This document shows positions 3,854-18,976 of a stretch of 23,246 bases of DNA, piece by piece (position 1 is the stretch's first letter; the number at the start of each line of letters is the position of its first letter). The notes beneath the pieces are model-generated. The model was not told the DNA's origin. It did not search any database and worked only from the letters and a program-made list of their open reading frames with translations. This DNA comes from a virus, in IMG/VR virus record IMGVR_UViG_3300021425_003248, positions 1 through 23,246 of that record; one strand, written 5' to 3'. The position numbers and the translations under genes are program-made.

Positions 3854-4426
3854 ATGTTTAATTTTTTTAAGAAAGAAGAAACGACTAGGGAGGTTCCTAT
3901 GCGTAGAGAAGGCTATCAAGTTCCTCAAGTAGAATTTGTATTCCGAGAAAACGGAGAATTTGTTTATCGTAAGACAAGTGAACTTTTCGATGGGAAGCGT
4001 GTTGTCATTTTTAGTCTGCCTGGTGCTTTCACTCCTACTTGCAGTGCCTATCAGCTACCTGGATTCGAAGAGAAATACGACGACTTTATTGGTAACGGCA
4101 TCGACGCTATTTACTGCATCTCTGTTAATGATGGGTTTGTGATGAATGCTTGGGCGCAAGACCAGAACATTAAGAATGTCCAACTCATTCCTGATGGCAA
4201 TGCATACTTCACCCGTTCGATGGGGCAATTGGTAATGAAGTCCAATCTTGGTTTCGGTGAGCGTTCTTGGCGTTATGCTGCGGTGATTGATAATGGTATG
4301 ATTGAAAAACTATTTGAAGAACCTGGTAAGGGTGACAATGCGATTAATGACCCTTATGGCGAAACAAGTCCAGAAAAAGTTCTGGAATATGTAAAGTCTA
4401 CTGTTCGCGAACCAGTAGCAGTATGA
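3854..4426 (+). CDS. Peroxiredoxin, Prx5/AhpC-TSA type
   Basis: The enzyme reduces hydrogen peroxide and organic peroxides in the cytoplasm with thiol donors such as glutaredoxin. The 190-aa protein carries the Prx5-type active-site motif PGAFTPTCS (residues 56-64), with Cys63 as peroxidatic cysteine and Thr60 as its partner. Cys88 (AIYCISVND) follows in the next strand. The C-terminal half keeps FGERSWRYAAVIDNG, typical of the family. The N-terminus (about 20 residues, MFNFFKKEETTREV) is an extension not needed for the fold. Some Prx5 proteins carry a fused glutaredoxin; this one does not, but a separate glutaredoxin gene lies at 18197-18433. It closes the hli-petF operon before a terminator. 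Confidence 0.9.
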   Translation: MFNFFKKEETTREVPMRREGYQVPQVEFVFRENGEFVYRKTSELFDGKRVVIFSLPGAFTPTCSAYQLPGFEEKYDDFIGNGIDAIYCISVNDGFVMNAWAQDQNIKNVQLIPDGNAYFTRSMGQLVMKSNLGFGERSWRYAAVIDNGMIEKLFEEPGKGDNAINDPYGETSPEKVLEYVKSTVREPVAV

Positions 4427-4429
4427 GTA

Positions 4430-4456
4430 AAGGAGGGTTATTAACCCTTCTTTTTT
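4430..4456 (+). terminator. Terminator closing the hli-petF-peroxiredoxin operon
   Basis: AGGGTT (4434-4439) pairs with AACCCT (4443-4448), extended by weaker outer pairs, and a run of T follows. It isolates the lysis genes from the photosynthesis operon. Confidence 0.8.
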
Positions 4457-4457
4457 A

Positions 4458-4464
4458 ATAAATA
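4458..4464 (+). promoter_or_regulatory. T4-type late promoter for the lysis unit
   Basis: ATAAATA lies 23 nt before the ATG of the peptidase gene, directly after a terminator. This matches the cyanomyovirus late promoter box read by the gp55-type sigma factor. Confidence 0.75.
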
Positions 4465-4487
4465 TAATACAGGGTTTGGATACTATA

Positions 4488-5186
4488 ATGCTTATAGACC
4501 TTCATAACTTCTTTAAATATTACGACGAAAAAAATCCAAAGCATGTTGCTGCGGTAGAGCAATTCGAAAAAGATTTGCTTCTTAAATCTCAAGAGTTGCT
4601 GCAAGATGATGCCAACTGGGTAAGAATTTATAGAAGTAAAGAAGACAAACCTCAAGCAACTATTTTACCTGTTCCCTTTTATCAACAAACAGATAATTAT
4701 AGAGATGCAAATAGAACTTGTAACTCTTCCGCTTGTGCTATGTGTCTTGAATATTTCAAACCTGGTACACTAAAAGGACCTAAGGGCGACGACGCCTATG
4801 TACAAAAAGTTTTCGCACTCGGTGACACAACTGATCACTTGGTTCAGACCAAGGTTCTTGCGTCATACGGCATTAAATCCAGTTTTTCCTACAGCCTTAC
4901 TTTTGCTGATCTTGATAGAGAGCTTGCCGCTGGTAGACCTGTTGTTATTGGTATTCTTCATCGCGGTCCTCTATCTAACCCCACAGGGGGGCACATGGTA
5001 GTTGTGATTGGTAAAACCCCATCAGGTGATTATGTTGTTAATGATCCTTATGGTTCACTAAATGATGGATACACTGGTTCAGTCACTAATGGTAAAAGTG
5101 CGATATACAAGCGCAGTGACCTTTCTCGTAGATGGTGTCCTGGCGGAAAGGATGGTTGGGGGAGAATCTTTGATGTAAAAAAGTAG
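4488..5186 (+). CDS. C39-like cysteine peptidase, 0-frame part of a predicted peptidase-muramidase frameshift fusion
   Basis: The 232-aa protein resembles papain-fold peptidases of the C39-like (Peptidase_C39_2) group. The likely triad is Cys78 (RTCNSSACAMC), His169 (GGHMVVVIG) and Asp186 (VNDPYG). Substrate is not known; next to a muramidase, cleavage of peptidoglycan peptides or of host proteins during lysis is the natural guess. The ATG at 4488 is chosen over an upstream TTG because it follows a late promoter at the usual distance. The last sense codons (AAA AAG) before TAG form a -1 slippery heptamer at 5177-5183 with a pseudoknot behind it. A fraction of ribosomes should therefore continue into the muramidase frame and make a product of about 393 aa. 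No signal peptide is visible. Confidence 0.85.
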   Translation: MLIDLHNFFKYYDEKNPKHVAAVEQFEKDLLLKSQELLQDDANWVRIYRSKEDKPQATILPVPFYQQTDNYRDANRTCNSSACAMCLEYFKPGTLKGPKGDDAYVQKVFALGDTTDHLVQTKVLASYGIKSSFSYSLTFADLDRELAAGRPVVIGILHRGPLSNPTGGHMVVVIGKTPSGDYVVNDPYGSLNDGYTGSVTNGKSAIYKRSDLSRRWCPGGKDGWGRIFDVKK

Positions 5187-5249
5187 AGTCAACACCACAA
5201 TCAAAAATCCCTCAGTGTGGTGTTGATTTGGTTAAAGAGTTTGAGGGAT
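5177..5249 (+). promoter_or_regulatory. Programmed -1 ribosomal frameshift signal (slippery heptamer plus H-type pseudoknot)
   Basis: A AAA AAG (5177-5183) is in the correct phase of the peptidase frame and TAG follows at once. Five nt further on, stem 1 pairs 5189-5199 with 5216-5226 (11 Watson-Crick pairs). Within its loop, 5207-5214 pairs with 5242-5249 (8 Watson-Crick pairs plus a G-U at 5215/5241), giving an H-type pseudoknot with loops of 7 and about 15 nt. The -1 frame is open from 5174 straight into the muramidase, which has no ATG, GTG or TTG start before the TTG at 5228. Slip site, spacer and pseudoknot agree with known -1 signals. Function is inferred. Confidence 0.85.
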
Positions 5250-5668
5250 GTCATTTAAATGCTTATCCCGACCCATTGACTGGTGGACTGCCAATCACAA
5301 TTGGTTGGGGTTCTACGAAAGATTTTAATGGAACTCCATTTAAACTTGGAAGAAAAATCACTCAAGAATATGCTGACAGACTATTGATGTTTGACCTTGA
5401 GCAAAGATTTCTTCCTTCACTACAGAAAATCCCACACTGGAATGAAATGACAAATGGACAAAGAGGTGCTTTGCTCAGCTTTTCTTATAATCTTGGTGCC
5501 GGTTTTTACGGTGGTTCTAACTTTAATACTATTACTAAATGCTTGAGAAATAAAGAATGGGCAAAAGTTCCTGATGCTTTATATCTTTACCGCAATCCTG
5601 GAACTAATGTAGAGAAAGGACTTGCTCGAAGAAGAGTTGCAGAAGGTAAACTTTGGAGTACTAAATGA
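5228..5668 (+). CDS. GH24 muramidase (T4-lysozyme-like endolysin), -1 frame part
   Basis: This enzyme cuts the MurNAc-GlcNAc bond of peptidoglycan at the end of infection. The conserved N-terminal active-site block is present: Glu of EFEGCHLNAYPD, Asp nine residues later, and Thr of ITIGWG, the E/D/T triad of GH24. Further family marks are QRGALLSFSYNLG in the middle and GLARRRVAEGKLW at the C-terminus. The given start is a TTG with no visible ribosome-binding site. The frame is open back to 5174, across the end of the peptidase gene. Together with the frameshift signal, this indicates that translation normally enters from the peptidase frame at 5183, adding 15 linker residues. If read alone, the domain is still essentially complete (146 aa). 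Confidence 0.92.
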   Translation: MVKEFEGCHLNAYPDPLTGGLPITIGWGSTKDFNGTPFKLGRKITQEYADRLLMFDLEQRFLPSLQKIPHWNEMTNGQRGALLSFSYNLGAGFYGGSNFNTITKCLRNKEWAKVPDALYLYRNPGTNVEKGLARRRVAEGKLWSTK

Positions 5669-7959: not shown

Positions 7960-8153
7960 CAATACTTACCTTCTTGTTTATGAATCCAAGTTTTAAGTTC
8001 GTGTAAATAATTTCTCAACATGTCCGCTTTTTCTAAATGCCATTTATCACCACTCTTGAAGTACTCTTGAGTGTGATTGTCAATTGCTTTTAGTGTATTG
8101 TGTATAGGTGCATTCCAAGGTTCTCTTATTGGAGTATTCCATTCCCTAGGCAT
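7959..8153 (-). CDS. Hypothetical 64-aa protein, first gene of the minus-strand late cluster
   Basis: A small soluble protein rich in Trp, His and charged residues (MPREWNTPIREPWN, then a helical KWHLEKADMLRNYLHELKTW). It lacks membrane segments or motifs. A minus-strand late box (8174-8180) lies 20 nt before its ATG, making it the lead gene of a unit running 8153 to about 6699. The helical half could mediate protein contacts. Function unknown. Confidence 0.7.
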   Translation of the reverse strand: MPREWNTPIREPWNAPIHNTLKAIDNHTQEYFKSGDKWHLEKADMLRNYLHELKTWIHKQEGKY

Positions 8154-8173
8154 TTGCGGGAAGCAGTTTTAAT

Positions 8174-8205
8174 TATTTATTCGTCATATGTTTAAATTAT
8201 AAATA
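8174..8205. promoter_or_regulatory. Divergent pair of late promoters
   Basis: TATTTAT at 8174-8180 is ATAAATA on the minus strand, 20 nt before the 64-aa gene. TATAAATA at 8198-8205 on the plus strand is the full T4 late consensus, 24 nt before the fibre gene. Two late units therefore diverge from this 76-nt gap. Confidence 0.8.
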
Positions 8206-8229
8206 TAATTAAGAGAAAATTATCTTAAT

Positions 8230-9513
8230 ATGTCAAAACAAATAGTAAATATTGGTTCAGTTGCAAATGACGGGACTGGTGACTCCATAAGAGTCGGAAT
8301 GAATAAAATTAATTCTAATTTTGATGAAATTTATTCGACTATAGGTGATGGAACTACATTAAGTATTTCTAGTGATGCAGCAACTCTTAATGGAGAACTA
8401 CCTGCTTATTATTTAAATTATGAAAATTTTACAAATATTCCAACAGATGTTTCTGAATTTACCAATGGATCCGGATATATTACTTCTACTGCTTTAGTTG
8501 GTTTAGCATCTGAAGGTTATGTTGATGCTGCTGTTGCTTCTGGAGAAGGTGGATCTGGAATTGGTATTACTTATGGTGATCTAAGTGTAGATTATTCTGC
8601 TGCTTCAGGAGTAGGTACACTTACATATAATAATACTAACGGAACTTTTACCTTTACTCCTCCAGATCTTTCTGGATCTGGAATTGGTATTACTTATGGT
8701 GATCTAAGTGTAGATTATTCTGCTGCTTCAGGAGTAGGTACACTTACATATAATAATACTAACGGAACTTTTACCTTTGCTCCACCAGATTTAGTAGGAT
8801 TCACAACTTCTGGTGACCTAGTAGGATTCACAACTTCTGGTGACCTAGTAGGATTCACAACTTCTGGTGACCTAGTAGGATTTGTCACTACTGGAGGTTC
8901 TGGTTCTACTTTAACTGGGATAGTAACATCTATCATTGCAGGAACAAATATAACTATAGTTCCAGAGAATGGGACAGGTTCTGTCACCATCAATTCTTCC
9001 GGAAGTGGCGGTGGGTCATTATCAATTCAAGATGAGGGTATTTCTGTTGGCACTGCAGCAACAATAATAAATTTTGTAGGATCTGATGTATCTGCATCTT
9101 ATTCCAGCGGCATTTCAACTATCACTATCTCAAATTCAAGAAAAATAGGAATTGATACAACTTCCCCCATTGGTTTGGGAAGCACTGGAAATATAGAAAT
9201 TTCTGCATCTAAAACATACGTATTGTATTCGATCGAGACAAATTATCCCGCATGGGTAACTTTATACACAGATGCAAATAGTAGAACTCTTGATGCTAGC
9301 AGGGTAGAAACTCAAGATCCTCTTCCAGGTTCTGGGGTCATTGCTGAGGTTATTACAACTTCAGGAAATTTAAATCAATTGATTACACCAGGAATTATTG
9401 GATTTAACAATGATTCTCCAACAACATCAAACATTTATGTCAAGGTAGTCAATAAACATAGTTCGGAAGTTGCAATAGGTGTTACTATTAATTACTTAAA
9501 ACTAGAGGACTGA
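8230..9513 (+). CDS. Repeat-rich fibre-like virion structural protein
   Basis: The 427-aa product is Gly/Ser/Thr-rich, without signal peptide or membrane helix. It opens with MSKQIVNIGSVANDGTGD followed by KINSNFDEIY, an N-terminus I associate with cyanomyovirus tail or baseplate fibre proteins. Residues about 108-189 are two 41-residue repeats (each starting GSGIGITYGDLSVDY). Residues about 189-215 are three exact copies of VGFTTSGDL and a fourth degenerate one. The C-terminal half (about 280-427) is beta-rich and could be a knob domain (INYLKLED end). A full late promoter precedes it. The repeats imply an elongated, trimer-type shaft. The two following S8 genes form a unit with it, spaced by 3 nt. 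Confidence 0.8.
   Translation: MSKQIVNIGSVANDGTGDSIRVGMNKINSNFDEIYSTIGDGTTLSISSDAATLNGELPAYYLNYENFTNIPTDVSEFTNGSGYITSTALVGLASEGYVDAAVASGEGGSGIGITYGDLSVDYSAASGVGTLTYNNTNGTFTFTPPDLSGSGIGITYGDLSVDYSAASGVGTLTYNNTNGTFTFAPPDLVGFTTSGDLVGFTTSGDLVGFTTSGDLVGFVTTGGSGSTLTGIVTSIIAGTNITIVPENGTGSVTINSSGSGGGSLSIQDEGISVGTAATIINFVGSDVSASYSSGISTITISNSRKIGIDTTSPIGLGSTGNIEISASKTYVLYSIETNYPAWVTLYTDANSRTLDASRVETQDPLPGSGVIAEVITTSGNLNQLITPGIIGFNNDSPTTSNIYVKVVNKHSSEVAIGVTINYLKLED
8551..8796 (+). repeat. Tandem 123-bp duplication inside the fibre gene
   Basis: Two successive 123-nt units (8551-8673 and 8674-8796) are nearly identical in DNA, including third positions. They start to differ only at the end (TTTACTCC against TTTGCTCC and beyond). 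Each encodes 41 residues, so frame is kept. Near-identity of silent sites points to a recent or homogenised duplication. Confidence 0.92.
8794..8874 (+). repeat. Three exact 27-bp repeats inside the fibre gene
   Basis: Units 8794-8820, 8821-8847 and 8848-8874 are identical and encode VGFTTSGDL, followed by a diverged fourth unit from 8875. Multiples of three allow copy-number change without loss of frame. Confidence 0.93.
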
Positions 9514-9516
9514 TAA

Positions 9517-11349
9517 ATGTCAGAACTTAAAGAATATATCGTAACTCTTCATCGCCATGAAGACCTTACCGGTTTTTATGAGGATATGGAAAGTAATGGA
9601 TATGCCTTAAAGAAAAAAAGAAACATTAGTAGAAATACTCATTATTTGTTAACCGATCAGCAAGCAGAAGATCTGAAAAATGATGAACGTGTATTGGCAG
9701 TAAATTGGGCACATCATCCTTTAAGGTTAAAATCAAGAGTTCTTGGAGGATCTTATACAATTAGTGGTACATTTTTTAAAGATGATACATCTGCTTCTGC
9801 TTGGACGGGTACCGAAACTGCTCCATTAGGCACTCCAGCAGCAACAGATAGGCAATGGGGTCAATTGCATTGTGCAGGAACAGACTCTGATAGAGGAAAA
9901 GGATCATTTGGATCAATAAATACTACTAATTTTATTTCAAGAACAACTGATATTACCGTTGGTGAGGCAGTTGGTGGAGGAACGACGGAATCTAAAAATG
10001 GGACAGTAACTGTATGGAATGATGGTAAAGATGTTGACGTTATTATTAGCGATACTCCATTGGCATATGATTGCGAAGAATGGAAAAGTCTTTCAACTGG
10101 AAATAATAGATTTGTACAATATGCTTGGAATGATTTAAATTCTATTGTTGAACTTGATGCTGGAGAATCTACGTTAAGTTCTTATTCTTATTACTCTTTA
10201 GCTGATATGGGATCAGCTACTCAAGGAACTACTCCAACAGATCATTGGCAACAATCTCATGGTATACATGTTGGGGGTACTGCCGCCGGAAAGCACTATG
10301 GGTGGGCCGTTGAATCTAATATTTATAGTATAAATTACCTTGATCCTGTTATGGTATATAGTTTATTTGATTATGTAAGAGCATTCCATCGAAAAAAATG
10401 GTCAGATGGGAACAGAACACCAACTATTATTAATAATAGTTGGTTGGCTTTAACAGTACTTTATGATGAATTGAAGGGAAATGAGTCTACTTATATTTCT
10501 TCCGTAAAATATAGAAATGTAACTTATACTCCAGGAGATACTCTTCCAAATGATGCTGGAAATACATGGGATCACACTTCACTTAAAAAAGCATTTGGTA
10601 TTGATACAAATTGGTTGGTTATTCCATATATTAATGAAGACACAATTGCCGATGTTGAAGATGCTGCTGATGAGGGTATTGTTGTAGTAACTATACCTCA
10701 CAATTTTAATAATTATTTTATTAAAGATCCTACTCATCCAGATTATAATAATCAAATTACTATATCTAATTTTGATCCTCAGGTTGATGGAACTTGGGAT
10801 ATTAATAAACCGCCCGAACCTGCTGCGGCTATTAAATCCATAGTTGTTGGGGCATTGGCTGGAACACCAGACTTTAGAAAATCATGTTTTAGTGGATATG
10901 GTCCTGCGGTAGATATTTTTGCACCGGGTTCAAATATAATTTCATGTGTCCTTGAAAATAATAAAGTTGGTCAGATTTATAGCCCTTGGCCCGGAAATGT
11001 CGATACTAAATCAGGTTATTCTGGGAATTATTATTTAAATTATAGTGGAACTAGTATGGCAGCGCCACAAGTTGCTGGTGTTTTAGCATGTGCTGCTACT
11101 AAAAAATCTAGATTTACTTATGATGATGCCCTGTATTATCTCCAGAAGACTTCAAAAAAAGATGATATGGTTTTTAATGTTAGTGGTGGTGGTTTTGATG
11201 ACCCCACACTGCAGAAAGAAAGTCCAAATGCTTATTTGTTGGCAAAAAGTCCAAGGGAAGAAACTGGATATCTTATGGATCAAAAAGGGACAAGAAAAGA
11301 ATCTGGTAATGTTTGGCCAAGACGAAATACTTTTATATACAAAGGTTAA
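9517..11349 (+). CDS. Subtilisin-like S8-family protein, copy 1
   Basis: The 610-aa protein starts with a propeptide-like domain (residues 1-75, MSELKEYIVTLHRHEDLTGF) resembling the I9 inhibitor/chaperone region of subtilases, then a catalytic domain. The triad is Asp179 (DVIISDTPLAYDCEEW), His248 (HGIHVGGTAAG) and Ser513 (SGTSMAAPQVAG). The Asp motif reads DTP instead of the usual DTG. The usual AAGN oxyanion region is replaced by IPHNFNNY, which still offers an Asn. No secretion signal is seen. It starts 3 nt after the fibre gene stop with AGAGGA as ribosome-binding site, so a virion role (processing or a fibre-attached protease) is more likely than a secreted enzyme. It is paralogous to the next S8 gene throughout. 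Confidence 0.86.
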   Translation: MSELKEYIVTLHRHEDLTGFYEDMESNGYALKKKRNISRNTHYLLTDQQAEDLKNDERVLAVNWAHHPLRLKSRVLGGSYTISGTFFKDDTSASAWTGTETAPLGTPAATDRQWGQLHCAGTDSDRGKGSFGSINTTNFISRTTDITVGEAVGGGTTESKNGTVTVWNDGKDVDVIISDTPLAYDCEEWKSLSTGNNRFVQYAWNDLNSIVELDAGESTLSSYSYYSLADMGSATQGTTPTDHWQQSHGIHVGGTAAGKHYGWAVESNIYSINYLDPVMVYSLFDYVRAFHRKKWSDGNRTPTIINNSWLALTVLYDELKGNESTYISSVKYRNVTYTPGDTLPNDAGNTWDHTSLKKAFGIDTNWLVIPYINEDTIADVEDAADEGIVVVTIPHNFNNYFIKDPTHPDYNNQITISNFDPQVDGTWDINKPPEPAAAIKSIVVGALAGTPDFRKSCFSGYGPAVDIFAPGSNIISCVLENNKVGQIYSPWPGNVDTKSGYSGNYYLNYSGTSMAAPQVAGVLACAATKKSRFTYDDALYYLQKTSKKDDMVFNVSGGGFDDPTLQKESPNAYLLAKSPREETGYLMDQKGTRKESGNVWPRRNTFIYKG

Positions 11350-11374
11350 ATAATTTTTTAGTATATTATCCTCT

Positions 11375-11471
11375 GGATTTAATAATGACGGAACTCCATC
11401 ATCCAATGTTTACGCCAGAGTTGTTAATAAGCATTCTACAACTGTTTAAGTACCTTAAGTTAGAGGACTGA
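11375..11471 (+). pseudogene. Decayed copy of the fibre gene 3' end
   Basis: Between the S8 genes, the sequence from 11375 would read GFNNDGTPSSNVYARVVNKHS in one frame. It matches GFNNDSPTTSNIYVKVVNKHS near the end of the fibre protein. After a small deletion, TACCTTAAGTTAGAGGACTGA-type sequence (YLKLED, stop) appears in another frame, again as in the fibre gene. It runs directly into the same GAGGACTGATAA ribosome-binding region and S8 start found at the fibre/S8 junction. The piece has no start and is frameshifted, so it is a relic. Confidence 0.85.
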
Positions 11472-11474
11472 TAA

Positions 11475-13289
11475 ATGTCAGAACTTAAAGAATATATCGT
11501 AACTCTTCATCGTCATGAAGACCTTGAAGGTTTTTATGAGGATATGGAGACTCCTGGTGGGGATTTGTATATTCCTGATAGAAAAGTTGATATTTCTCTC
11601 AGAAGACCAATGAGTAGAAATACTTATTATCTATTAACCGAAGAAGAAGCAGAACTTATCAAAAAAGACGAAAGAGTTTGGGATGTAGTTCTGAAAGAGG
11701 AAATTAAATTTAGACCAAGAGCTATAGTAAATAACTCTCCTTATACAGTTTCTGGTGATTTTTGGAAAGATGCAGATTCAATCAGTTTAACCGAAGAAGG
11801 AATTTTTAGACCTTCTTTTACCGCAGATGCGAATAAACATCAATGGGGATTGCTTCATTGTGCTGGAACTGCTACTCAAAGAAGAAAAAATTCTTCTTGG
11901 GGAGGTAGTGGAACCACTGAGGTAGTTAATGATTCTGTCACGGTATTTAATGGTGGTAAGCATGTTGATGTAGTTATAGTAGATGATCCAGTTTCTTATG
12001 ACTGTGAAGAGTGGTACAGTCCTTCATCAAACACTACAAGATTTGTGCAATATCAATGGTTTGATGAACTTAATTCATATGTTTTATCTATTGATGACGA
12101 TGGATTTTCCAATTTACCAACTGGAACAATAGAATATCCAACAAATGCCAGTAATTCTACTTATCATGGGACGATGGTTGCGAGTATCGCTGCCGGACAA
12201 TTTTATGGATGGGCAAAAGAATCTAACATATATTCATTAGCATTTGAATGGCCTTCTGGTCAAGGTGTATATGAAGATTTATTAATTTTTGATTATTTGA
12301 GAGCATTTCATTTATATAAACCAATAAATCCCGAAACGGGATTTAGAAATCCAACTATAACAAATCATAGTTATGGTGGGTTTAAAAATATGCCGACAAA
12401 AACTGATGAATCTGGGACATATAATAGTTTAGATTTTGAAGATTTAATATCAGTTACTTATCAAGATTCCACTTACGATGCTTCAACTCCAGGACCAGCA
12501 GGATCGTGGACTCAAGAAAATGTAGAAAATGCTTTTGGTGTTAGATTTGGTGTTGAAAATTATCCTTTATGGTCAGCGGCAACAATTGCCGATGTACAAG
12601 ATTGTATTAAAGACGGTGTTGTACTTGTAGGGGCTGCTGGAAATGATAATTTACTTCTTGCAAGACCTAATGATATTAATTGGGATAACAAATTAACAGT
12701 GTCTGGTGGAGTTGGTACTTTTTACTATAATAGAGGAGGTTCTCCAAATACTCCAGATGCTGGTATATTTCAAATTGGCAATTTATCCGATACTGCCGAT
12801 TTTCGAAGATGGAATCTTAGCGAATTTGGTCCAGGTGTCGATTATTTTGCTCCAGGAGATCAAATAGTATGTTCTTCATTTGATGCAGTCAGTTATTTTC
12901 GCAATTTAGGTGACGTTACAACTGGATTTGAATTTCTAGTAGACAGTAAGTACACGGAGGGTAGTGGGAATTGGTGGTTAGCTGCATCTGGGACTAGTTT
13001 TTCATCACCACAGGTATGTGGAATACTTGCCTGTGCTGCGACAAATAAACCAAGATTTACGCAACAAGATGCTAAAATGTATCTTGAAAAAACATGTGTA
13101 ACTGGAGATATGACTTTTGATTTAAGTGGAGGTGAATATAGCGATCCAACCTGTAGTAAAGGAAGTCCAAATAAAGTTGTGGCGTGTAAAAATCCTAGAG
13201 ATGAATCTGGATTTATTAATTCACAGAAGGGAGAAAGGAAAACTACTGGTATGGTATTTCCTCGAATAAATACATTGAATATGGTATAG
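11475..13289 (+). CDS. Subtilisin-like S8-family protein, copy 2
   Basis: This 604-aa protein is the tandem paralogue of the preceding S8 protein. The first 16 codons differ by hardly any base, then the two diverge, with a 16-residue insertion after about residue 28 here. The triad is Asp170 (DVVIVDDPVSYDCEEW), His231 (HGTMVASIAAG) and Ser508 (SGTSFSSPQVCG). It keeps the classic oxyanion segment GAAGNDN, which copy 1 lacks. The Asp motif is DDP rather than DTG. There is no signal peptide or membrane segment. The C-terminal 60 residues (DPTCSKGSPNKVVACKNPRDESGF) parallel those of copy 1 (ESPNAYLLAKSPREETGY). Divergence with triad conservation suggests two targets or a hetero-oligomer. It ends before the psbA promoter/terminator. 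Confidence 0.87.
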   Translation: MSELKEYIVTLHRHEDLEGFYEDMETPGGDLYIPDRKVDISLRRPMSRNTYYLLTEEEAELIKKDERVWDVVLKEEIKFRPRAIVNNSPYTVSGDFWKDADSISLTEEGIFRPSFTADANKHQWGLLHCAGTATQRRKNSSWGGSGTTEVVNDSVTVFNGGKHVDVVIVDDPVSYDCEEWYSPSSNTTRFVQYQWFDELNSYVLSIDDDGFSNLPTGTIEYPTNASNSTYHGTMVASIAAGQFYGWAKESNIYSLAFEWPSGQGVYEDLLIFDYLRAFHLYKPINPETGFRNPTITNHSYGGFKNMPTKTDESGTYNSLDFEDLISVTYQDSTYDASTPGPAGSWTQENVENAFGVRFGVENYPLWSAATIADVQDCIKDGVVLVGAAGNDNLLLARPNDINWDNKLTVSGGVGTFYYNRGGSPNTPDAGIFQIGNLSDTADFRRWNLSEFGPGVDYFAPGDQIVCSSFDAVSYFRNLGDVTTGFEFLVDSKYTEGSGNWWLAASGTSFSSPQVCGILACAATNKPRFTQQDAKMYLEKTCVTGDMTFDLSGGEYSDPTCSKGSPNKVVACKNPRDESGFINSQKGERKTTGMVFPRINTLNMV

Positions 13290-13308: not shown

Positions 13309-13331
13309 ACCCCTTGACAGGGGGTTTTTTT
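13309..13331 (+). terminator. Terminator after the S8 genes, with TTGACA in the loop
   Basis: CCCC(T) pairs with (A)GGGG around TTGACA/TGAC and T7 follows. The loop contains the -35 box of the psbA promoter. Confidence 0.85.
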
Positions 13332-13347
13332 AGTGCTATTATAAATA
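13314..13347 (+). promoter_or_regulatory. Overlapping early (sigma70) and late promoters of psbA
   Basis: TTGACA (13314-13319), 17 nt and TATTAT (13337-13342) form a strong host-type promoter. TATAAATA (13340-13347), the full T4 late box, overlaps its -10 region. psbA can thus be transcribed both early and late from nearly the same point. Confidence 0.82.
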
Positions 13348-13403
13348 GGTAAACAAATGTTACGAAATCAACATATTTCTTAATATTTGTCCTCTTCCTA
13401 ACC

Positions 13404-13461
13404 GAGACCTATGGGGAGGTAAAACACAGTCTCTCATACCCACACTGGAGGGTGGTGTGGG
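13404..13461 (+). ncRNA. Structured psbA leader RNA (PhotoRC-like candidate)
   Basis: The leader of about 160 nt before psbA contains GAGAC (13404-13408) able to pair with GTCTC (13429-13433). It also has a 7-bp hairpin CCCACAC/GTGTGGG (13439-13445 with 13455-13461) with a 9-nt purine-rich loop, and the G-rich block ATGGGGAGG. Conserved PhotoRC RNA motifs are known before psbA in marine cyanobacteria and phages. Membership here is a guess from position and folding. Confidence 0.45.
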
Positions 13462-13513
13462 ATATAATGTACTCGTTCAGTTCCCCCTGAGCATTACTTA
13501 CCCTTTAACGAAA

Positions 13514-14061
13514 ATGACTGCTTCTATTGCACAACGCAATTCTACTAACCCCTGGGAATCTTTTTGCCAGTGGGTTACTTCAACCGATAATCGTCTTTAT
13601 GTCGGTTGGTTTGGAGTCCTTATGATTCCTTGCCTACTTGCTGCTACAACTTGTTTCATCATTGCATTCATCGGTGCTCCCCCTGTGGACATTGATGGTA
13701 TTCGTGAACCAGTTGCTGGCTCTCTAATGTATGGAAATAACATCATCTCTGGTGCTGTTGTTCCTTCGTCCAACGCAATTGGACTGCACTTCTACCCCAT
13801 CTGGGAAGCCGCCTCTCTGGATGAGTGGCTTTACAACGGCGGACCTTTCCAACTCGTTGTCTTCCACTTCCTCATTGGTATCTATGCTTATATGGGTCGT
13901 GAGTGGGAACTCTCTTACCGTCTAGGTATGCGCCCTTGGATCTGTGTTGCTTACAGCGCACCTGTTGCTGCTGCTTCTGCCGTATTCCTGGTCTATCCTT
14001 TCGGTCAAGGTTCTTTCTCTGATGCGATGCCTCTGGGTATCTCTGGTACTTTTAACTACAT
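13514..14061 (+). CDS. psbA: Photosystem II D1 protein, exon 1
   Basis: D1 is the reaction-centre subunit of photosystem II and the subunit most rapidly lost to light damage; phage copies keep photosynthesis running in infected cells. Exon 1 encodes residues 1-182 plus two bases of codon 183, from [17 protein letters not shown] through [17 protein letters not shown] to SGTFNY. Residue 130 is Glu, the form of high-light D1 isoforms. An in-frame GTG at 13457 would add 19 residues but lies in the structured leader; the ATG at 13514 gives the normal D1 start. Exon 1 ends in ACTACAT at 14061 and joins 14941. Exons total 1080 nt, exactly 359 codons plus stop, the normal D1 length. Unspliced RNA would stop three codons after the junction. 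Confidence 0.96.
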
Positions 14062-14126
14062 AAACTAAACCAATGTGTAGTATAAATCGGGTGAACTGCT
14101 GGAAACCTAAATCGTATTGACTAACC

Positions 14127-14172
14127 TTTAACTTTATGTTATTATAAATAATAATAGATACATAAAGTTAAA
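14127..14172 (+). promoter_or_regulatory. Late promoter inside a 12-bp hairpin at the endonuclease start
   Basis: TTTAACTTTATG (14127-14138) and CATAAAGTTAAA (14161-14172) are perfect inverse copies; the second ends on the A of the start codon. The 22-nt loop contains TATAAATA (14143-14150), the late box, 21 nt before the ATG. psbA read-through RNA would bury the start, while RNA begun at the late box lacks the first arm. The same logic is known for T4 I-TevI, e and soc. Confidence 0.82.
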
Positions 14173-14831
14173 TGTCTAAGAAACTTACTATTGATGATAT
14201 AAAAAGTATTGCTGAAAATAGAAACCACACAATAGTTTCTATGGAAGGTTATGCAGACATCAAAAGTAAAGTCCAGTTCTTCTGTAATACTTGTAATAAT
14301 CATTTTGATACAAGTGTTGCTTCTTATAAAAATGCAAAGAAAACTGGGTGTCCTCATTGTAGGAAAATCATTATCTCCAAAACTCAAAAAGGAAAGGATG
14401 TTAGTGATGAAACCAGAAAACTTCTATCTCTAAAAGCACAAGGTCGCAAAGGTTCTCTCAAAGGTAGGTTTGGTAAAAACCATCCTGCATATAAAGGAAC
14501 TCCAAATAGAGATTTTAATAACCCCTCAACAGATTATTATATTTGGAGAGAGGCAGTAAAAACTAGGTTCAATAGAACCTGTGTTGTTACTGGTAAAAAA
14601 TCTAACCTTGTTACTCATCATTTAGATGGTTGGAATGCATATCCTCAAAGAAGATATGATATTACAAACGGCGTTCTTATTCACAAAGAAGTTCATAAAC
14701 TATTCCACGACCTTTATGGTTATGGTAATAATACAGAAGAACAGTTTAATCTCTTTCTCAAAGAGCAATACGACACGGCAATCAGCATCCAAGTCTCAGA
14801 TACATCTGAGAAAGGTTCAGAGACTACCTGA
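14172..14831 (+). CDS. Intron-encoded HNH homing endonuclease
   Basis: The 219-aa enzyme should cut intronless psbA near the insertion site and so spread the intron. The N-terminal part (about residues 1-65) contains a zinc-ribbon-like pair of CxxC motifs (CNTCNNHF and CPHCRK). A basic linker follows (KKGKDVSDETRKLL, RKGSLKGRFGKNHPAYKGT), resembling DNA-binding NUMOD segments. The HNH core lies near residues 124-178: YYIWREAVKTRFNRTCVVTG, then THHLDGWNAYP and ITNGVLIHKEVHKLFHDLYG. The gene lies wholly inside the psbA intron, ends beside its P7 element, and has its own late promoter within a hairpin. It is AT-richer than the surrounding psbA exons, as expected for a mobile gene. Confidence 0.9.
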   Translation: MSKKLTIDDIKSIAENRNHTIVSMEGYADIKSKVQFFCNTCNNHFDTSVASYKNAKKTGCPHCRKIIISKTQKGKDVSDETRKLLSLKAQGRKGSLKGRFGKNHPAYKGTPNRDFNNPSTDYYIWREAVKTRFNRTCVVTGKKSNLVTHHLDGWNAYPQRRYDITNGVLIHKEVHKLFHDLYGYGNNTEEQFNLFLKEQYDTAISIQVSDTSEKGSETT

Positions 14832-14920
14832 GGAGTTCAGTCTCCTTAATAACAGGTTTAAGCGCCCGACAATCTAATAAAATAGATTGATGATATAGTC
14901 CAATCCCTATGGAAACATAG

Positions 14921-15472
<552 letters not shown>

Positions 15473-17509: not shown

Positions 17510-17650
17510 ATGATTACTTCTGAAACACCTTATAAACTTTCAGAAATTATTAGAGATACATGGCCTGGCATTTACAGAAAACCTCAAATACCTTATAATA
17601 CAAAAAATAACCTAGATTATGAACGAATATTGGATAGTAAAAAATCATAA
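17510..17650 (+). CDS. Hypothetical 46-aa protein
   Basis: A short charged protein (MITSETPYKLSEIIRDTWPG, then YERILDSKKS). It starts one nt after the previous stop and overlaps the next gene by 32 nt. No ribosome-binding site stands out. The junctions favour a real gene. Confidence 0.45.
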   Translation: MITSETPYKLSEIIRDTWPGIYRKPQIPYNTKNNLDYERILDSKKS

Positions 17651-17891
17651 AACTGGAAGAGTTATTGCACATTGCGGCGATATCAATGATGCCATTATGA
17701 TGGTAAGTTTTGATCCTCATAATAGATCTTATAGTCGTCACCGTTTTCTTAGCGACCAAGTGATTGATGTTTTTTCTACAACAGATAAACAACTTCCCGG
17801 TCAAATTGGATTGCCTTCTGGAAAAATAGAACAACTTAATTCTTATATGGAAAAACTTCCTGAAGGTGTTGGTGATCCAATAATAGTATGA
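17619..17891 (+). CDS. Hypothetical 90-aa protein
   Basis: A soluble protein whose N-terminus (MNEYWIVKNHKTGRVIAHCG, DINDAIMMV) suggests a beta-hairpin plus helix. The remainder (SRHRFLSDQVIDVFSTTDKQ, then GQIGLPSGKIEQLNSYMEKL) has no known motif. It is the best-supported gene of this short cluster by length and codon use. Its stop overlaps the next start (ATGA). Confidence 0.65.
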   Translation: MNEYWIVKNHKTGRVIAHCGDINDAIMMVSFDPHNRSYSRHRFLSDQVIDVFSTTDKQLPGQIGLPSGKIEQLNSYMEKLPEGVGDPIIV

Positions 17892-18085
17892 ATCATAGAA
17901 AGCATAAGCAAGCAAGAAATCAAAAGAAGAAAAAGATGTATACTCCTGAGTGATATCTTCTAGATCCTCTAGATGCTGTTTGTCCACATTGTGGAAAGAA
18001 GAATAAACCTTGTTCTTATGTAAATAGTTTAAGTCGTTCTTGGGCAAGAAATGCTTGTGCTAAAAAGAATTCAAAACTTTCTTGA
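17888..18085 (+). pseudogene. Small zinc-ribbon gene interrupted by one in-frame TGA
   Basis: The frame from ATG 17888 encodes a Lys-rich start (MNHRKHKQARNQKKKKMYTPE), meets TGA at 17951-17953, then stays open for 43 codons to TGA at 18083. The second part contains a plausible zinc ribbon (AVCPHCGKKNKPC) and a SLSRSWARNACAKK tail. Replacing the TGA by TGG gives one smooth 65-aa protein. A recent nonsense mutation, sequencing error or read-through are all possible; the base after TGA is T, not a strong read-through context. Confidence 0.6.
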
Positions 18086-18173
18086 AAGAGATCAAGATAT
18101 TACAGTGTATGATGAATGGCATTATATTTACATCACTATAAAAGAACTCATTAAAATCTTGATCACTAAATAA
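18051..18173 (+). CDS. Hypothetical 40-aa protein
   Basis: A short frame (MLVLKRIQNFLERDQDITVY, then WHYIYITIKELIKILITK) overlapping the interrupted gene by 35 nt. It is hydrophobic and basic at the end. It may be a chance frame; a stop directly before the glutaredoxin leader is its only contextual support. Confidence 0.35.
   Translation: MLVLKRIQNFLERDQDITVYDEWHYIYITIKELIKILITK
18166..18172 (+). promoter_or_regulatory. Late-like box CTAAATA before the glutaredoxin gene
   Basis: CTAAATA ends 24 nt before the ATG at 18197, matching the spacing of true late boxes. Confidence 0.45.
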
Positions 18174-18196
18174 AAACAATACCAATTTATTTTTAT

Positions 18197-18433
18197 ATGA
18201 AATTTACAATTTATTCAAAGGATGGGTGTCCGTATTGCACTAAAGTTCAACAAGTGCTAGAATTGACTGAACTTCAGCATGTAGTTTATAAACTTGGTGT
18301 TGACTTTACCCGTGAAGAATTTTATTCTGAATTTGGACAAGGATCAACATTTCCTCAAGTTATTGTGGACGAAAAGCATATTGGAGGGTGTACGGATACG
18401 GTTCAATATCTCAAGGAGCAGAATCTAGTTTGA
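18197..18433 (+). CDS. Glutaredoxin
   Basis: A 78-aa cytoplasmic thiol reductase of the classic dithiol type. The active site is Cys11-Pro-Tyr-Cys14 in SKDGCPYCTKV. The cis-proline loop (STFPQVIVDE) and glutathione-binding GGCTDT segment are present near residues 54-71. In T4-like phages such proteins reduce ribonucleotide reductase; here they may also support the peroxiredoxin encoded at 3854. The stop overlaps the next start (TGATG). Confidence 0.95.
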   Translation: MKFTIYSKDGCPYCTKVQQVLELTELQHVVYKLGVDFTREEFYSEFGQGSTFPQVIVDEKHIGGCTDTVQYLKEQNLV

Positions 18434-18792
18434 TGGAAAATAGTAATCAGGAAGTTTGCAATGATGTTGAAAAAGCAATCGATTATGCTTTTAATGGCCA
18501 ATTTGTTATGAAATTTTATGATTATCTAAAAATTCGTAAAACAAAAAAAGTAGAAGTTGATGAATTTATTGAAAGTTCAACTGCAAATGAAATCAATAAT
18601 TTAGTGATTGACCTTGATGACTATATTGAAGGTGGTTCTGATGAAATACATAAACAACTTCGTGAGGGATATGGGCATATTCCAAAACCACAAGCAAGAA
18701 AAATAAGAAATTATCTACAAGGCATATTGGAAGATGCTTGGAAGTATAGTTATGATAAAAGACCAGGACGACGCAAAAAGCAAACTAAATAA
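18433..18792 (+). CDS. Hypothetical 119-aa protein
   Basis: A soluble, mostly helical protein with an acidic first half (MENSNQEVCNDVEKAIDYAF) and a basic C-terminus (KPQARKIRNYLQGILEDAW, ending KRPGRRKKQTK). The basic tail suggests nucleic-acid or acidic-protein contact. The start at 18433 overlaps the glutaredoxin stop; an upstream in-frame start at 18388 would lie inside the glutaredoxin gene and is not used here. No family is recognised. Confidence 0.75.
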   Translation: MENSNQEVCNDVEKAIDYAFNGQFVMKFYDYLKIRKTKKVEVDEFIESSTANEINNLVIDLDDYIEGGSDEIHKQLREGYGHIPKPQARKIRNYLQGILEDAWKYSYDKRPGRRKKQTK

Positions 18793-18958
18793 TAGTGATT
18801 CCCAGATTAATCGGGGAATAGAGTTGTTATTACGCAATAGAAAGAGGAGGTCAGAAAATCCAAAAACTTTTCAAGTAAAGTTTGGTAAAATGATCTCTCT
18901 TTTTCGTAGAGAGTTTCATCTTTACATTGACTTTAACTTTGATATTAAGAAAAAATAA
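18752..18958 (+). CDS. Hypothetical 68-aa basic protein
   Basis: The ATG at 18752 follows GGAAG by 7 nt, so it is preferred over one 18 nt earlier. The product begins MIKDQDDAKSKLNNSD, has a basic middle (LLLRNRKRRSENPKTF) and an aromatic C-terminus (FRREFHLYIDFNFDIKKK). It overlaps the preceding gene by 41 nt. No function is recognised. Confidence 0.55.
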   Translation: MIKDQDDAKSKLNNSDSQINRGIELLLRNRKRRSENPKTFQVKFGKMISLFRREFHLYIDFNFDIKKK

Positions 18959-18976
18959 ACTCTCTGGGGAAGAAAA

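Follow-up and report, generated by a model that had tools for sequence, protein, structure and literature searches.

Two fibre-tip and subtilisin-like protease cassettes in tandem in a T4-like cyanophage, probably stacked by recombination with a relative

Distantly related Alteromonas phages have a fibre and a chaperone in common, which is described as the exchange of a host-recognition module (PMC10579305). The locus considered here is like those modules in that a fibre and the gene behind it would move as a unit and leave mosaic fibres. It would differ in that the partner is a subtilisin-like protease, and in that the old cassette has been kept behind the new one together with a stranded fibre end. 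Both S8 genes of the locus are like PHROG 9158, which holds phage S8 proteins with no assigned function, and the C-terminal part of the fibre matches PHROG 15343/9627 in a profile search. Unlike the PHROG 9158 loci, two S8 genes are found in the window alone among the 219 listed loci with an S8 body, whether body or pro-domain is counted; the window is the whole IMG/VR virus record analysed here, a metagenome assembly of 23,246 bases. The predicted protease S8a is like ProN-Tk-SP (3afg) and proteinase K (2prk) in modelled fold, catalytic residues and pro-domain topology, and differs from them in being 13-19% identical among the matches listed and in lying in a phage fibre operon. No description of a fibre-tip/S8 gene pair was found in the full-text literature searched, a weak negative because few subscription journals are covered.

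The window contains genes of T4-like cyanophages (a split psbA, pstS, a porin and S-adenosylmethionine decarboxylase). The features of the locus, which is followed by psbA, are:

8230-9513, + strand: tail fibre gene with a T4 gp9/10-like N-terminus and a conserved C-terminal beta-sandwich tip (PF07880; PHROG 15343/9627; tip model)
9503-9554, + strand: joint R1, with the last fibre codons, a ribosome-binding GAGG, a double stop and the S8a start; identical to R2
9517-11349, + strand: S8a, predicted subtilisin-like protease of 610 aa with a pro-domain, the first ~20 codons L011-like (PF00082; residues; model)
11350-11373, + strand: AT-rich sequence that separates the S8a stop codon from the relic (alignments)
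11374-11474, + strand: relic of a fibre 3' end, the last ~37 codons with a frameshifting 17-nt deletion (alignments, tree)
11461-11512, + strand: joint R2, 52 nt identical to R1
11475-13289, + strand: S8b, predicted subtilisin-like protease of 604 aa, with L011-like first ~40-50 codons and a body of another group
13309-13325, + strand: terminator-like hairpin with a T run, 3' of S8b

L011 is the corresponding locus in record IMGVR_UViG_3300044949_001773 (G001). This record is syntenic with the window, with identities of 90% (window positions 4001-5666), 94% (7971-8211), 92% (13310-14061) and 84% (17524-18964), and stretches of 70-82% further to the right. Between flanks that are 92-94% identical, L011 has one fibre, one S8 gene and no relic. 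Its fibre matches that of the window at 84% in the N-terminus and 76% in the C-terminal part, and the relic with the start of S8b at 79% over 11374-11686. A sequence near-identical to the hairpin (CCCCTTGACAGGGGG) is also present in L011. Elsewhere in G001, about 1.7 kb with a tail-like gene lies between flanks that abut at window positions 8199-8211 with a 13-nt overlap; this difference is a clean gain or loss.

The halves of psbA (13457-14068 and 14942-15472) match positions 1-183 and 184-358 of the psbA model and are split by an insert (14069-14941). An open reading frame in the insert (14172-14831), which we take to be HNH-like, gave a weak zinc-ribbon match in Pfam and nothing stronger. 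The insert matched no Rfam intron family at the gathering score. A PhotoRC-II RNA (RF01717, 76.6 bits) is located upstream of psbA at 13381-13475. In G001, psbA lacks the insert and both matching psbA stretches abut.

The family was surveyed in eight IMG/VR scans and three phage records, four profile scans being represented by the best 80 each of 496-595 confirmed stretches. After removal of seven fragments that belonged to the window or the L011 record, the 337 sequences including the window were reduced to 220 by overlap. Among these listed loci an S8 body was matched in 219 and a pro-domain in 213. A fibre tip is found directly upstream of all 211 pro-domain matches with more than 250 nt of upstream sequence (214 matches are listed), and for S8b the tip in this count is the relic itself. 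Fibre tip and S8 are therefore a fixed two-gene unit in marine phages among the loci listed, and the sequence-only reading was right to take fibre end plus S8 as the unit. That reading had also proposed looking in relatives for versions with one and with three copies; one copy is the rule, and none with three was found among the loci listed.

Seven more loci (L344-L350) come from bacterial and archaeal bins, and each has one S8 gene with an open-frame fibre tip ending close upstream (7/7). The bins are assigned to Gammaproteobacteria, Rhodobacteraceae, Rickettsiales and Euryarchaeota. These are most likely phage contigs, so the fibre-tip/S8 unit may extend beyond cyanophages. Extra S8-like matches in L066, L096, L162, L180 and L185 were rejected as further tandem loci since they consist of the C-terminal S8 part alone. 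L070 was rejected as a second relic locus; it has a complete second fibre-tip gene behind S8 instead. A near full-length fibre-tip match is found downstream of S8 in L074, L295, L299 and L304.

PF00082 matches the two S8 genes with 63 and 52.6 bits (cut-off 21.8). Asp179, His248, Asn396 and Ser513 of S8a are invariant in 40 of 40 aligned sequences, and from the alignment we take them to be the Asp/His/Ser triad and the oxyanion Asn. The S8a model (pTM 0.85, mean pLDDT 79.7) gives proteinase K-like matches down to E 6e-15. In its N-terminus, the pro-domain, the elements are ordered strand-helix-strand-strand-helix-strand, and the I9 match of the pro-domain in Pfam is below the cut-off (14.5 vs 21.2). 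Among solved sequences, nothing beyond weak PCSK9 matches was found near S8b. Both predicted proteases look active, and the gene behind the fibre appears to encode a zymogen-type subtilisin. Many S8 relatives (L009:5690-7789, L003:3704-5761 and others) carry a C-terminal extension, which in L009 has weak matches, below the cut-off, to copper-binding (plastocyanin-like) profiles.

The fibre is a mosaic relative to L011: identity is 82-87% in the first 120 nt, mostly about 45-60% in the shaft with one block of 92%, and 63-82% in the tip. The tip model has a mean pLDDT of 96.3, and a comparison with solved structures gave no match at E <= 0.001, the best being a weak beta-sandwich. The shaft also contains a direct repeat of 118 nt (98% alike) and tandem units of 27 nt at 8550-8894, a recent in-frame expansion.

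The S8 gene starts 1 nt past the fibre stop in 78 of the 105 loci with a recognised LE-x-stop end; 112 non-redundant loci were examined and this end was unrecognised in 7. GAGG, GGAG or AGGA occurs within the last 20 nt in 94 of the 112, compared to a background of 13.6%. The last fibre codons therefore seem to do double duty, for the fibre itself and for the S8 start. Because the gene pairing is fixed and the joint is shared, the predicted protease may work at the fibre tip, where, together with the tip, it would probably have proteins of the host surface as targets or take part in maturing the fibre. In the window the two joints are identical over 52 bases within a wider alignment of 112 nt at 88%, and they have one silent base in common that is absent from L011. 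A search for the junction in IMG/VR gave matches in two L011-type contigs and in no others. The idea of a universal recombination joint at the DNA level was rejected, because silent sites near the S8 start are no more conserved in the family: sharing is 0.45 in codons 1-10 and 0.40 in codons 11-20, compared to 0.52-0.55 in the bodies (2,065 of 3,240 pairs, those with bodies less than 50% identical).

The relic starts with the fibre's GFNND codons and closes with KLED, a double stop and a start like the real fibre. Its frame (11372-11446) reads SGFNNDGTPSSNVYARVVNKHSTTV, and the intact fibre counterpart reads GFNNDSPTTSNIYVKVVNKHSSE. The in-frame fibre-end part covers 11374-11443 and is followed by the deletion and the bases up to the S8b start; the 17 nt missing near the 3' end compared to L011 cause the frameshift. 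Alignment showed no fibre similarity upstream of 11374, hence no more than the final ~37 codons of the fibre are left in the relic. At the protein level it scores 89 with the window's own fibre (best of three frames), where 2,000 dinucleotide shuffles give a mean of 25.6 and a maximum of 50. The nucleotide similarity is weak, at a score of 28 where shuffles have a mean of 20.2 (sd 2.6) and a maximum of 40, and the fibre-tip profile matches the relic at E 2e-4. A decayed fibre end at 11375-11471, and a junction repeated before both S8 genes, had been noticed from the letters alone; both observations hold, the coordinates to within a few bases.

The origin of the relic is a different matter, because it had been taken for a copy of the fibre in front of S8a. 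It is instead nearer to the fibre end of L011 (55 of 63 nt) than to the window's own fibre (42/63), which in turn matches L011 at 45/63. All three are alike at 40 of these sites, relic and L011 agree alone at 15, fibre and L011 at 5 and relic and fibre at 2, and one site differs in all. The fibre-tip tree groups fibre, relic and L011 together (100/99) and, in the opposite direction, weakly joins fibre and relic within the group (98/24). The sites thus suggest that the relic is closer to the relative's fibre end, and with 63 of them this point carries the least weight in the argument. Five changes are private to the relic, four of them silent and one non-silent and conservative. When a relic dead from birth was simulated, at most one non-silent change of five was obtained with p 0.009-0.026, depending on transition bias. 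The mostly silent changes suggest that, not long ago, the relic still formed the end of a functional fibre.

The S8 genes are far more alike in their 5' ends than in the remainder, in agreement with the first impression from the sequence. The first 60 nt of S8a are 93% identical to S8b and 92% to L011, and the next block 55 and 53%. Between S8b and L011 the identity in successive 60-nt blocks is 98, 85, 63, 55 and 43%. Silent choices are shared by S8a and S8b at 14 of 15 sites in codons 1-16 and at 10 of 12 in codons 31-60, and at 35/64, 38/60 and 34/77 in three body blocks. The bodies are 41% identical in amino acids, and that of S8b is up to 60% identical to the S8 of other phages. In the body tree (63 rows) S8b belongs to a group of 28 rows (98/99), a long branch leads to S8a outside it, and L011 falls in a different group of 8 rows (100/99). 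Forcing S8a and S8b to be sisters costs 18.6 log units with AU p 0.0895, S8a having a long branch. The pro-domain tree (65 columns, rough bootstrap) places S8b in an 11-row group (98/91), where the L011-type S8 are near neighbours of S8b by path length. All 8 S8 proteins in the L011 body group have a long pro-domain loop, as do three of the 73 others, L089, L105 and S8b. S8b is a recombinant gene whose break lies near codons 40-60, because its body and its pro-domain with the loop group with different relatives, both with support.

The explanation that we find likely is that recombination with a relative has stacked two fibre-tip/S8 cassettes that are related but of separate derivation. The ancestor would have been L011-like, with fibre, joint, S8, terminator and psbA in that order. 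A crossover within the pro-domain would have given the ancestral S8 gene the body of another group, as the incongruent trees indicate, and so produced S8b. In a later step, a relative that shared the fibre-tip subtype would have contributed DNA that replaced most of the fibre and carried S8a along. The left crossover would lie somewhere within the mosaic fibre, and the right one would be non-homologous at about 11350-11373. No similarity to L011 or to the window's own fibre was seen in alignments of this stretch, which is presumed to be a breakpoint of the illegitimate type. In this way the resident fibre would have left its last 37 codons stranded before S8b. The relic would afterwards have lost 17 nt, and its 3' end was probably kept because the last fibre codons double as the ribosome-binding site of S8b.

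Some observations fit this import less well. The sister relationship of S8a and S8b is not rejected in the AU test, the fibre-tip tree pairs fibre and relic, and two sites agree with that pairing. The silent base common to R1 and R2, and the sharing in codons 31-60, fit copying or conversion within the genome. No donor with the fibre tip of the window and S8a was found among the loci listed. The main rival is copying followed by replacement of a body, and most of the evidence is common to both explanations. The whole fibre and S8 unit would then have been duplicated, the second fibre mostly deleted and one S8 body replaced, leaving the 5' ends as the trace. The identical joints with their silent base without counterpart in L011, the shared silent sites in codons 1-16 and 31-60, the weak pairing in the tree and the AU p of 0.09 for the S8 pair all speak for it. 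We nevertheless regard it as unlikely, since it needs more steps, L011 is closer to the relic than to the window's fibre, and S8a and S8b are apart in the body trees.

A plain tandem duplication of the fibre end and S8 followed by divergence through point mutations, as the sequence-only reading proposed, is very improbable. The tandem order is real, the relic, the unit and the repeated junction are all present, and the S8 proteins are 41% identical along their whole length. However, the ages do not match: the joints are identical, the dead fragment is 87% like the functional end of L011, and S8 bodies at 41% have diverged too far for a duplication no older than the relic. The S8b body is nearer to the S8 of other phages than to S8a, mostly silent changes are unexpected in a fragment dead from birth, and L011 is 92-94% identical to the window in the nearest flanks. 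The relic and the repeated junction stand, but neither a copy of the window's own fibre end nor divergence of the S8 genes in place is supported.

An assembly chimera, in which two phage strains were wrongly connected through the 52-nt repeat, is suggested by the metagenomic origin of the record, by a repeat shorter than some assembly words and by a stack in only 1 of 219 listed loci. It is hardly credible because a misjoin within the repeat yields one S8 gene and not two, the link between S8a and relic sits in unrepeated sequence and G001 is syntenic with both flanks.

A bolder idea is that T4-like cyanophages exchange fibre tip and S8 together as a single host-surface module and that the stack is a reversible intermediate, in which recombination between R1 and R2 would excise S8a and the relic exactly and so switch the protease partner; we consider this quite doubtful. 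If import from a relative is correct, the locus would show a step of the exchange that is normally erased, with the newly arrived cassette next to the leftover end of the earlier fibre and the earlier protease. Given the fixed pairing of fibre tip and subtilisin-like protease, a part played by the protease in host attachment can be tested.
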